Origin: Flavobacterium okayamense
GTDB lineage: Bacteria > Bacteroidota > Bacteroidia > Flavobacteriales > Flavobacteriaceae
Assembly: GCF_019702945.1 (NCBI RefSeq)
Contig: NZ_AP024749.1
Coordinates: 1,178,001 to 1,242,000 of the forward strand
Length of the DNA: 64,000 bases
Direction: 5' to 3'
Below, in pieces: positions 3,777 through 41,301 of the stretch. The notes below the pieces were generated by a model that saw only the letters and a program-made list of their open reading frames with translations, had not been told where the DNA came from and ran no database searches. The number at the start of each line of letters is the position of its first letter. The stretch's first letter is position 1. A program made the position numbers and the translations under genes.

Positions 3777-3863
3777 AAATATTATTTTTTTAATGAAATT
3801 TTAGAAAATATTTCATTATTTAAATTTTGTCACTACATTTGAAGTGTTTATAATTATAGTGTT

Positions 3864-3968
3864 TGTTATCACGAAAGCTGGAGGGAATAGACCCTGTGAA
3901 AGCTTAGCAACCCTACACTTGTAGAAGGTGCTACATTCTATTCCGATTTTATCGGAAGCAGATAACGT
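3864..3968 (+). ncRNA. SAM-I (S-box) riboswitch upstream of the methionine synthase operon
   Basis: The hallmarks of the SAM-I aptamer appear in order: P1 strand GTTATC (3865-3870), the AGGGA...ACCCTGTGAAA block (3882-3901), GCAACC (3907-3912), a P3 hairpin CTACACTTGTAG, AAGGTGC, a P4 hairpin TTCCGATTTTATCGGAA and the closing GATAAC (3961-3966) that pairs with the first strand. It is expected to sense S-adenosylmethionine and shut down metH and metF expression. The downstream segment 3979-3999 is complementary to 3864-3883 and may be the switching element. The whole gap 3711-4050 is filled by the inverted repeat, the aptamer and this leader. Confidence 0.93.
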
Positions 3969-16432: not shown

Positions 16433-17119
16433 ATGACAAAGAATCCGAATACCAAAAATCTGAATTTAGTTCAATTTTCATCAGATGAAATTGGAGACAA
16501 TCACATGTTCACATCTGTTGAAACACCTTTAAAAAAAGATGCGTTTTTAATGTCTGATGAAGAAAAGAAACAAAAAATTTCTTTTCACTTTAGAGAGATA
16601 ATGGAAGTTTTAGGCCTCGATTTAACCGATGATTCCTTAAAAGGAACTCCAGATAGAGTAGCTAAAATGTATGTAGAAGAAATCTTCTCGGGCTTAAAAC
16701 CAGATAATAAACCTAAGGTTGCTCTTTTTGAAAATAAATACCAATACAATCAAATGTTGGTTGAAAAAGACATCACGTTTTATTCAAATTGTGAACATCA
16801 TTTTGTGCCTATTTATGGTAAAGTACACGTGGCTTATATTTCAAATGGAACTGTAATCGGATTATCAAAAATTAATAGAATTGTGCAGTATTTTGCGAAA
16901 CGACCACAGGTTCAAGAGCGCTTAACTATGCAAATTGCAAACGAATTAAAATTTATTTTAGGAACCGAAGATATAGCAGTAATAATTGATGCAAAACACC
17001 TCTGTGTTTCTTCAAGAGGAATTCAAGATGACACTTCCGCAACGGTAACCAATTATTTTGGAGGCGCATTTGAAGAACCACACAAAGTGGAAACATTATT
17101 AAAATTTATAAAAAAATAG
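16433..17119 (+). CDS. folE: GTP cyclohydrolase I
   Basis: A 228-residue enzyme making 7,8-dihydroneopterin triphosphate from GTP, the first step to folates and pterins. Zinc/active-site motifs are present: SNCEHHFVPIYG (about 120), GLSKINRIVQYFAKRPQVQERLT and DAKHLCVSSRGI (about 185). The first 45 residues form a variable extension. The placement after two photolyase genes suggests supply of pterin cofactor (folate antenna for CRY-DASH, or reduced pterin handled by the SDR). It may be a second folE copy dedicated to this operon. No strong terminator follows; the pheA promoter starts within the next 30 bases. Confidence 0.93.
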   Translation: MTKNPNTKNLNLVQFSSDEIGDNHMFTSVETPLKKDAFLMSDEEKKQKISFHFREIMEVLGLDLTDDSLKGTPDRVAKMYVEEIFSGLKPDNKPKVALFENKYQYNQMLVEKDITFYSNCEHHFVPIYGKVHVAYISNGTVIGLSKINRIVQYFAKRPQVQERLTMQIANELKFILGTEDIAVIIDAKHLCVSSRGIQDDTSATVTNYFGGAFEEPHKVETLLKFIKK

Positions 17120-17121
17120 AT

Positions 17122-17149
17122 TTGAAATTCAATTTAATTTCTATATTTG
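17122..17149 (+). promoter_or_regulatory. Promoter of the pheA-aroG leader
   Basis: TTG (17122-17124) and TATATTTG (17142-17149) are spaced by 17 bases, a good Bacteroidota match. It lies 20 bases before the leader peptide ATG. Confidence 0.7.
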
Positions 17150-17168
17150 CTGCTACTGAAAATAACAG

Positions 17169-17258
17169 ATGAAAAATTTCGTAACATATTTTAACAACTT
17201 ATATTATTTCTTTTTCTGGAACGAAAAGGGATTGTTGTTATGTTATGTAAAAAAGTAA
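17169..17258 (+). CDS. pheL-like: Aromatic-amino-acid leader peptide (attenuation), 29 residues
   Basis: An ATG 20 bases after a promoter opens a 29-codon frame ending TAA at 17258. Nine of its first 17 residues are aromatic: F4, Y7, F8 and the unbroken run YYFFFW at 12-17 (17202-17219). Immediately after come the antiterminator strand and a rho-independent terminator before pheA. This is the layout of an amino-acid leader peptide at which a ribosome short of charged tRNA-Phe, tRNA-Tyr or tRNA-Trp stalls. It has no homology-based support; the call rests on composition and architecture. Confidence 0.88.
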   Translation: MKNFVTYFNNLYYFFFWNEKGLLLCYVKK

Positions 17259-17323
17259 AAGATTTAAATTTATATAATTAGATATACAACAATCCCGGAG
17301 TTTAGACTTCGGGATTTTTTTTT
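17228..17323 (+). promoter_or_regulatory. Transcription attenuator before pheA (antiterminator and terminator)
   Basis: Terminator: AATCCCGGAG (17291-17300) pairs with CTTCGGGATT (17307-17316), leading into nine Ts (17315-17323). Antiterminator: GGGATTGTTGT (17228-17238) is perfectly complementary over 11 bases to ACAACAATCCC (17286-17296), which includes the terminator's 5' arm, so the two structures exclude each other. Strand 17228-17238 lies inside the leader peptide codons just after the aromatic run, as expected for ribosome-controlled switching. Confidence 0.88.
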
Positions 17324-17329
17324 GAATGT

Positions 17330-18160
17330 ATGGTAAGTAAAATTGCAATTCAAGGGATTAAAGGATCATTTCACCACCAAGTGGCAACAGAATATTTTCA
17401 AAATAATGATATTGTTATTGAGTGTAGTTCTTTTAAAAAGGTGATGGAAACATTACGTTTAGGTTTAGCAAAATATGGAGTTATTGCATTAGAAAATTCT
17501 ATTGCTGGTACTATTTTACCTAATTATGCATTAATGGACAAATACAATACATTTATTGTTGGCGAACATTATGTAAATATCAATATGAATTTATTGGCCT
17601 TAAAGGGTCAAAAAATAGAAGATTTAAAAGAAGTTCATTCGCATCCCATTGCGCTTTTACAATGTGCCGATTTTTTTGATCAATATCCAAATATTAAATT
17701 AGTGGAAAGTAGCGATACAGCTAATGCTGCAAAAAAAATTCAAGAAAATCAATTAAACGGAATTGGTGCTTTGGCTGGAGACATTGCAGCCGAATTGTAT
17801 AAATTAGAAATTTTAAAACCAAGTGTTCATACGGTTAAAAGTAATAAAACACGATTTGTAGTTTTAGAAGCAAGTAATACTCGAAAAATAGAAAAGAAGA
17901 TTAACAAAGCTTCATTAAAATTTGAACTAGATGATACACCTGGAAATTTAGCTACGGTATTAAATGTTATTAATAATTGCAAATTGAACTTAACAAAAAT
18001 TCAATCCTTACCGATTATAGAAAAACCTTTTAGTTATTCGTTTTTTATAGATGTGGTTTTTGAAAAAAGGAAACATTACGAAAAAGCGAAATCACTTTTA
18101 GATATAATGACTTTAGATTTTAAAGTGTTAGGAGAATATCAATCAGGAAATCAAAATTAA
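17330..18160 (+). CDS. pheA: Prephenate dehydratase
   Basis: A 276-residue monofunctional prephenate dehydratase. The N-terminal catalytic region begins KIAIQGIKGSFHHQVA and contains ALENSIAGTI and the catalytic-type segment SNKTRFVVLE (about 182-191). A C-terminal ACT domain (KASLKFELDDTPGNLATVL, from about 200) should bind phenylalanine for feedback inhibition. It converts prephenate to phenylpyruvate. The ATG at 17330 is used; an ATG four bases earlier stops after four codons. The attenuator directly upstream gives a second control layer. Confidence 0.94.
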   Translation: MVSKIAIQGIKGSFHHQVATEYFQNNDIVIECSSFKKVMETLRLGLAKYGVIALENSIAGTILPNYALMDKYNTFIVGEHYVNINMNLLALKGQKIEDLKEVHSHPIALLQCADFFDQYPNIKLVESSDTANAAKKIQENQLNGIGALAGDIAAELYKLEILKPSVHTVKSNKTRFVVLEASNTRKIEKKINKASLKFELDDTPGNLATVLNVINNCKLNLTKIQSLPIIEKPFSYSFFIDVVFEKRKHYEKAKSLLDIMTLDFKVLGEYQSGNQN

Positions 18161-18188: not shown

Positions 18189-19271
18189 ATGGAGAACAGA
18201 AAAGACATCCGAAAATGGTTAGACGATTTTAATTTATCTCATCCACTAGTAATTGCTGGTCCATGTAGTGCAGAAACAGAAGAACAAGTTTTAAAAATAG
18301 CTCATGAATTAAAAGATTCAGATGTTTCTATTTTCAGAGCAGGAATATGGAAACCAAGAACAAGACCAGGAGGTTTTGAAGGCGTAGGCGCAATCGGTTT
18401 AAAATGGTTGCAAAAAGCTAAAGCAGAAACAGGAATGTTAATGGCAACAGAAGTTGCTACGGCTGCACATGTGCAACTAGCTTTAGAACACGATATTGAT
18501 GTTTTATGGATAGGAGCGCGTACAACTGTAAATCCATTTGCGGTGCAAGAAGTTGCAGATGCGTTGAAAGGAACTGATAAGATTGTTCTATTGAAAAATC
18601 CAGTAAACCCAGATTTATCTCTATGGTTAGGCGGATTAGAACGCTTGTACAATGCCGATATTAAAAAATTAGGGGTTATTCATAGAGGTTTCTCTACCTA
18701 TGAAAAAACGAAATATCGTAACAATCCGGAATGGCAAATTGCCATTGAATTACAAAGTCGTTTCCCAGATTTACCTCTTATTTGTGATCCTTCACATATT
18801 ACAGGTAAAAGAGATATGATTAAAGATGTTTCGCAACAAGCGTTAGATTTAAACTTTGATGGATTAATTATTGAAACACATATAGATCCTGATAATGCTT
18901 GGAGTGATGCTGCACAGCAAGTAACTCCTGCTGCTTTAAAGCAAATGTTTATTGATTTAAAAGTCAGAAAAGAAACGGATGAAGCAGACGATTACAATTT
19001 AAGATTAGCTAAATTGAGAACGCAAATTGATGAGTATGACGAAAAAATCTTAGAGATTTTGGGAGGAAGAATGAAAATTGCAGATCAAATTGGGGTGTTA
19101 AAAAAAGAGAAAAACGTAGCCATTTTGCAAAATAAACGTTGGAACGAAATATTAGGAAAAATGATTTTAGATGGTGAAAAAAAAGGACTTAGTGAAGAAT
19201 TTGTACTTCAACTATTTAAAGCCATACATCAAGAAAGTATAAATCACCAAGAAAAAGTTTATAAAAAATAA
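18189..19271 (+). CDS. aroG: Bifunctional DAHP synthase / chorismate mutase
   Basis: A 360-residue fusion. Residues about 1-265 are a class Iβ DAHP synthase (VIAGPCSAETEEQ, FRAGIWKPRTRPGGFEG, CDPSHITGKRD, IIETHIDPD). Residues about 275-355 form a chorismate mutase of the AroQ type (KLRTQIDEYDEKILEILGGR ... ILGKMILDGEKKGL). It joins the first shikimate step with the chorismate-to-prephenate step, matching the pheA gene 28 bases upstream. In many flavobacteria, as I recall, an aminotransferase and prephenate dehydrogenase lie between these two genes; they are absent here. A strong terminator closes the operon. Confidence 0.94.
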   Translation: MENRKDIRKWLDDFNLSHPLVIAGPCSAETEEQVLKIAHELKDSDVSIFRAGIWKPRTRPGGFEGVGAIGLKWLQKAKAETGMLMATEVATAAHVQLALEHDIDVLWIGARTTVNPFAVQEVADALKGTDKIVLLKNPVNPDLSLWLGGLERLYNADIKKLGVIHRGFSTYEKTKYRNNPEWQIAIELQSRFPDLPLICDPSHITGKRDMIKDVSQQALDLNFDGLIIETHIDPDNAWSDAAQQVTPAALKQMFIDLKVRKETDEADDYNLRLAKLRTQIDEYDEKILEILGGRMKIADQIGVLKKEKNVAILQNKRWNEILGKMILDGEKKGLSEEFVLQLFKAIHQESINHQEKVYKK

Positions 19272-41232: not shown

Positions 41233-41301
41233 CGCTAATATTCCCGCTGTCCACTATATCTTTTTTTCAAAAAGGATGTTGTTACCATCGGGGCTATTCA
41301 A
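41233..41301. repeat. Dispersed intergenic repeat upstream of the rRNA operon
   Basis: The stretch with CCCGCTGTCCACTATATC, a T-run/A-run hairpin and ATCGGGGCTA matches, from memory, a repeat scattered in flavobacterial genomes. It is not part of the rRNA promoters. The 638-base gap 41209-41846 holds this repeat, an ATTCGTAATT tract (41321-41350), three promoters and the rRNA leader. Confidence 0.5.

Follow-up and report, generated by a model that had tools for sequence, protein, structure and literature searches.

A predicted ribosome-mediated attenuator with phenylalanine and tyrosine codons upstream of pheA in Flavobacterium okayamense

The pheA leader region

The window analysed here is a stretch of 64,000 nucleotides from the genome of Flavobacterium okayamense, and the features described in this section all lie on its plus strand. 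The gene pheA (17330..18160) encodes a prephenate dehydratase (PF00800, E 1.4e-52) whose ACT domain is weak, with PF01842 at 20.2 bits, below the Pfam cut-off of 27. It is followed by a gene for DAHP synthase fused to chorismate mutase (18189..19271; PF00793 and PF01817), and these two are the genes which the leader described below would regulate. Upstream is folE, which ends at 17119.

Between folE and pheA lie a promoter, a short open reading frame and a terminator. A TTG at 17123..17125, weak taken alone, is a possible -33 promoter element, presumably matching the consensus at that distance. The -7 box, TATATTTG at 17142..17149, fits the flavobacterial consensus TAnnTTTG (PMC9723704), and its end is 19 nt ahead of the start codon of the leader. 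A scan for E. coli-type promoters gave none at the site of this box. The leader open reading frame (17169..17258, stop included) has 29 codons and a TAA, and begins without a Shine-Dalgarno sequence. Its product is MKNFVTYFNNLYYFFFWNEKGLLLCYVKK, which is aromatic at nine of its first 17 residues and contains the putative control-codon run, Tyr-Tyr-Phe-Phe-Phe-Trp (17202..17219).

Segment 2, the 5' strand of the antiterminator, is GGGATTGTTGT (17228..17238), and it makes a perfect 11-bp helix with segment 3, the 3' strand, ACAACAATCCC (17286..17296); both were identified from the fold and from covariation. At this locus the leader stop codon comes 17 nt beyond segment 2. The final six bases of segment 3 are also the beginning of the 5' strand of the intrinsic terminator hairpin (segments 3:4, 17291..17316), which was found by a terminator scan and has conserved pairs, and which runs into nine Ts (17315..17323), the first two shared with the stem. 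A possible 1:2 (protector) hairpin at 17208..17231, pairing the Phe codons at 17208-17216 with 17223-17231, is present in the minimum-energy fold of the window's sequence and is only weakly above shuffles across relatives. The parts and their spacing can be read directly from the window, and the promoter box, 29-codon leader, nine aromatics, 11-bp antiterminator and nine-T terminator of the preliminary description were confirmed base for base.

The terminator is the sole terminator-like site in 16900-17400, where shuffles expect 0.1. The fold of the antiterminator region has a z of -6.2, equalled by 0 of 200 shuffles, and the fold of the whole leader a z of -2.9, equalled by 1 of 200. Short ATG open reading frames that are comparably rich in aromatics number 10 of 949 (8-45 aa, both strands, whole window); two of these ten are followed by a terminator-like hairpin, and the one after the pheA leader is the stronger of the two.

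Conservation and covariation in relatives

Regions upstream of pheA were searched, within 400 nt, for a terminator preceded by a short open reading frame in which 14 residues include at least seven aromatics. pheA was detected in 103 of 150 same-genus genomes, 138 of 149 genomes drawn from the family and 172 of 198 drawn from the phylum. All 103 upstream regions and eight same-genus regions from the phylum draw (one a duplicate) form the genus set, 97 regions represent other genera of the family, and the beyond-family set of 24 has 23 regions from the 24 matches that lay in the class but in other orders, together with a single region from beyond the class. Not included were two matches belonging to the same order but to a different family, as well as the other matches beyond the class; L001, whose pheA is 92% identical, and L002 were excluded from every count.

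The leader and terminator were found in 218 of the 232 upstream regions: 105/111 in the genus, 93/97 in the rest of the family and 20/24 beyond it, where the matches represent five families of the class and one lies outside the class. The same search returned nothing in 928 dinucleotide shuffles or in 232 reverse complements. L140 was dropped because it is the same place as L053, leaving 217 rows for the later counts. A TAnnTTnG box lies at most 70 nt upstream of 202 of the 217 leaders, compared with 14% of shuffled upstream regions, and Shine-Dalgarno-like 4-mers precede one of them.

Fourteen upstream regions failed the search. Two of these (L058, L095) are truncated at contig ends, two others (L098, L180) have a leader under a threshold, with L098 at an aromatic score of 6 for a threshold of 7, and the other ten have no leader within 400 nt. 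Among these ten, L233 has the terminator and lacks the leader. In L187, also one of the ten, a family-type terminator precedes the called start of pheA by 544 nt, beyond the 400-nt range, and here the leader may have moved or the start may have been miscalled. In three same-genus loci (L102, L103, L104) pheA is a distant one (40-44% identical); it lacks an aromatic leader, and genes typical of the operon were not found downstream of it. Another three (L153, L154, L160), from one other genus of the class (code g161), have pheA without a recognised leader.

The terminator and the antiterminator share a strand and are mutually exclusive, and both stems covary. The covariation was measured in 96 distinct same-genus rows, using eight core pairs per stem. 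The antiterminator core pairs are formed in 97.7% of cells, with a covariation score of 0.192 as against at most 0.078 when the partner is slid by 1-3 columns; the terminator core pairs are formed in 100% of cells, with a score of 0.154 as against at most 0.068. Not every measure exceeds the shuffles: as many pairs changed on both sides arose in 97 of 500 shuffles for the antiterminator and 52 of 500 for the terminator, and as many additional pair types in 28 of 500 and in 500 of 500 respectively. The signal comes mostly from one position, which reads G-C-G across segments 2, 3 and 4 in 48 of 103 rows and A-T-A in 45; intermediates that keep G-U pairs account for seven more (G-T-A in six and A-T-G in one), and the position is undefined on one strand in three. 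On a quick tree of the pheA protein its letters change at least 8, 6 and 7 times in segments 2, 3 and 4.

Across the class the core of segment 3 varies (ATCCC, ATCCT, GTCTC, GTCCC and others). The exact complement of a row's own core, sought 6-24 nt after the last aromatic codon, was recovered in 154 of 209 rows, where permutation gave a mean of 39.5 and a maximum of 57, and in 63 of 106 rows outside the genus, where it gave a mean of 23.3 and a maximum of 37; 8 of the 217 rows were excluded for having other cores. These permutations, like the shuffles, take no account of shared ancestry. A strand-swap test run on the entire leader told own from swapped strands only moderately well (own mean 18.6, swapped 14.1, shuffled 12.2), because the cores resemble each other between classes. 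In the family alignment segment 2 sits one column off between GGGAC-type and GAGA-type rows, so the class table and the permutation were used in place of pair counts. Three same-genus loci (L034, L076, L100) have an intact terminator and a weak antiterminator, with GGGAATGG replacing GGGATTG, and are possibly decaying switches.

The preliminary description had called for an alignment of this kind, and its outcome, the leader in 218 of 232 regions with Phe and Tyr in all 217 rows and both stems covarying in the genus, bears on two readings that do without a stalled ribosome. By one of them the hairpin is merely the terminator of folE and the short open reading frame a chance frame. The hairpin does sit between folE and pheA and could block read-through from folE, but the leader recurs with it in relatives and never in the 928 shuffles, segment 2 covaries with segment 3 from inside the leader, and a promoter box stands between folE and the leader as it does before most of the others; on leader conservation, this covariation and the promoter box, an upstream-gene terminator alone was rejected, and we consider it extremely improbable. 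By the other, this is a riboswitch, a T-box or a protein-bound leader, which is very improbable: competing terminators are used in such systems too, but what is conserved here is codons and two competing stems. A T-box or riboswitch was rejected because Rfam has no family at gathering score in 17100-17340, where 11 sub-threshold matches are far below their cut-offs. Ribosome-mediated attenuation of pheA and DAHP synthase, which had been proposed for this locus from the start, is strongly supported by conservation and covariation.

Control codons and the supply of tyrosine

Every one of the 217 leaders contains both Phe and Tyr codons, and 107 contain Trp codons. Counting back from the last aromatic codon, positions -3 to 0 are 99-100% aromatic in the 104 genus rows. 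With segment 2 defined as the best-matching complement in an 18-nt interval downstream of the run, the gap between it and the last aromatic codon is 10-11 nt in 119 of 217 leaders and 7-11 nt in 193. A ribosome extends about 10 nt past the codon in its A site, so the run ends about where a stall would still free segment 2. In a folding model of the window's leader the terminator still forms with the RNA masked as far as the Trp codon, and is lost from the best fold with a mask that ends two codons before Trp. By this spacing and modelling, the control codons are placed so that a stalled ribosome would leave segment 2 free. The stop codon follows segment 2 in 175 of 217 leaders and comes before its end in 42. 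Leaders switch between a short form, whose stop falls no more than 12 nt beyond the last aromatic codon, and a long form at least seven times on the genus tree, which indicates that the RNA is conserved rather than the C-terminus of the peptide.

The usual operon order in the genus is pheA, aminotransferase, tyrA, DAHP synthase. In 13 of 103 genus loci, that of F. okayamense among them, no tyrA stands between pheA and DAHP synthase; a further ten (L011, L013, L023-L025, L027, L029, L032, L101, L105) have insufficient downstream sequence for a call. No match to PF02153 (tyrA) was found in any of the 13 genomes, F. okayamense included. All 13 have a member of the PF00351 hydroxylase family, as against 11 of 17 hand-picked tyrA-bearing genomes (Fisher p 0.024, uncorrected for ancestry); G073, with no pheA match, is outside these counts. 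The tyrA state changes at least four times on the tree, from which 17 rows without a full downstream reading were dropped. The PF00351 gene at G000:C1:1411108-1411911 lies in an open frame whose 614 codons are close to double the 331 positions of the family model, and its match is in two pieces. Since tyrA was not found and a phenylalanine-hydroxylase family gene was, F. okayamense probably makes Tyr from Phe, with PheA feeding both amino acids; if Tyr derives from Phe in species that lack tyrA, control of PheA is control of both.

Which amino acids the leader would sense was weighed on these rows. The preliminary description had suggested a response to general aromatic starvation, in which Phe, Tyr and Trp codons would all count, and this proved too wide. 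Trp is absent from 110 of the 217 leaders and was gained or lost at least 15 times on a quick genus tree, trpE has a WWW leader of its own, and the modelled terminator persists with the mask extended to Trp. A sensor of all three would agree with the Trp that closes the run here, as it does in 38 of 104 genus rows, with a DAHP synthase that supplies all three aromatics, and with a higher number of Trp codons in genus leaders that have lost tyrA (mean 0.77, n=13, vs 0.31, n=74; p 0.002, uncorrected for ancestry). We find it quite unlikely, and it was rejected as the main reading on the missing Trp codons and the separate trpE leader. Alternatively the leader would sense only Phe, and its Tyr codons, which differ from Phe codons by a single base, would be passengers. 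This seems unlikely given that every leader has Tyr, that position -3 is Tyr in 88/104 genus and 65/93 family rows and position -9 in 82/104 genus rows, and that the Tyr count is no lower after loss of tyrA (mean 2.85 in 13 leaders vs 2.65 in 74 with tyrA; p 0.60). In its favour are the last two control positions, mostly Phe (101/104 and 62/104 genus rows), and the rows outside the family, of which only 9 of 20 have Tyr at position -3. Judged by the codons, a sensor of Phe and Tyr fits better than a general aromatic one, because both are in all 217 leaders and Trp in only 107. This makes Phe and Tyr the likely signals and leaves Trp doubtful.

Proposed mechanism and relation to known systems

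The pheA leader is very probably a classical ribosome-mediated transcription attenuator, which by its sequence features would sense charged tRNA-Phe and tRNA-Tyr. Transcription would start about 15 nt before the leader ATG. With sufficient Phe-tRNA and Tyr-tRNA, the ribosome would pass the aromatic codons and cover segment 2, segment 3 would then pair with segment 4, and RNA polymerase would stop at the T run. When Phe or Tyr is short, the ribosome would stall at the aromatic codons, its leading edge touching segment 2 or falling just short of it; segments 2 and 3 would pair, no terminator would form, and pheA and the DAHP synthase gene would be transcribed. The stalling, its coupling to RNA polymerase, the dependence on tRNA and the role of the Tyr codons are what we infer from these parts.

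A broader reading, which we put forward tentatively and would not yet favour, is that a Phe-plus-Tyr attenuator with a non-Shine-Dalgarno start, using its Tyr codons as a second sensor, is found across much of the class Bacteroidia. If this is true, one leader reads both the product of PheA and a product made from it, and in lineages that lost tyrA the Tyr codons report Tyr made by the hydroxylase. Attenuation requires that the first ribosome be tightly coupled to RNA polymerase and that translation of a very short leader start efficiently, and leaders without Shine-Dalgarno sequences that are conserved over many genera would be a natural reporter of ribosome loading and coupling in Bacteroidota. 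The layout of the leader also supplies an annotation rule for the regulation of pheA.

Other leaders and RNA elements were seen in the same genome. hisG is preceded by a His-run leader, MFLNQLHHHHHFFHAQAM (L238:1169-1225), with a terminator at 1260 and a candidate antiterminator pairing of 9 bp. trpE is preceded by a Trp-run (WWW) leader, MQNILNNTWWWINLRRTS (L239:1309-1365), with a terminator at 1406; its candidate antiterminator of 7 bp pairs with the hairpin loop and the upper 3' side, not with the 5' strand. His, Trp and pheA leaders in one genome suggest that attenuation is routine control there. The window also holds a SAM riboswitch (Rfam RF00162) at 3863-3968 and, on the minus strand at 41236-41299, a Flavo-1 RNA (RF01705) about 550 bases before a 16S rRNA gene.

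A comparative study of 2004 reportedly predicted attenuators in Bacteroidetes/Chlorobi. Short leader genes have been counted across many phyla (PMC4833913), a candidate pheA motif is described in Actinobacteria (PMC2864571), short open reading frames reminiscent of leader peptides are reported in Bacteroides (PMC7366714), and Shine-Dalgarno sequences are generally absent in Bacteroidetes (PMC3155529). The closest report is on F. psychrophilum, with clues for leader-peptide attenuation upstream of amino-acid biosynthesis operons and with pheA and hisG among the structured 5' elements found also in other genera of Flavobacteriaceae without Rfam hits (PMC9723704). The pheA leader concerns the same gene in the same family and is very probably the same element. 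The earlier remark that such leaders are little described in Bacteroidota does not hold for these attenuation clues and this pheA 5' element; it stands for the detail, as the passage on it in PMC9723704 reports neither the sequence, codons or stems of a leader nor an occurrence outside the family. Among the matches listed in the open-licence literature, supplements excluded, there was no description of the codons or stems of this pheA leader. With attenuation in Flavobacterium and the pheA 5' element already published, the leader appears, from its sequence, to be a well-supported addition to a known type.

The attenuators of enterobacterial pheA and trp consist of a short leader open reading frame with control codons for the end product, competing 2:3 and 3:4 stems and a T run, and the F. 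okayamense leader has all of these. It differs from them in mixing Phe and Tyr codons rather than using those of one amino acid, in lacking a Shine-Dalgarno sequence, in the stop codon that follows segment 2 in most of its relatives, and in an operon with DAHP synthase/chorismate mutase, to which many same-genus relatives add an aminotransferase and tyrA. Mixed control codons are known from the ilv/leu and thr leaders, where they are branched-chain or Thr/Ile codons. The pheA leader resembles these in that it is proposed to sense more than one amino acid, and differs from them in that its control codons are aromatic.
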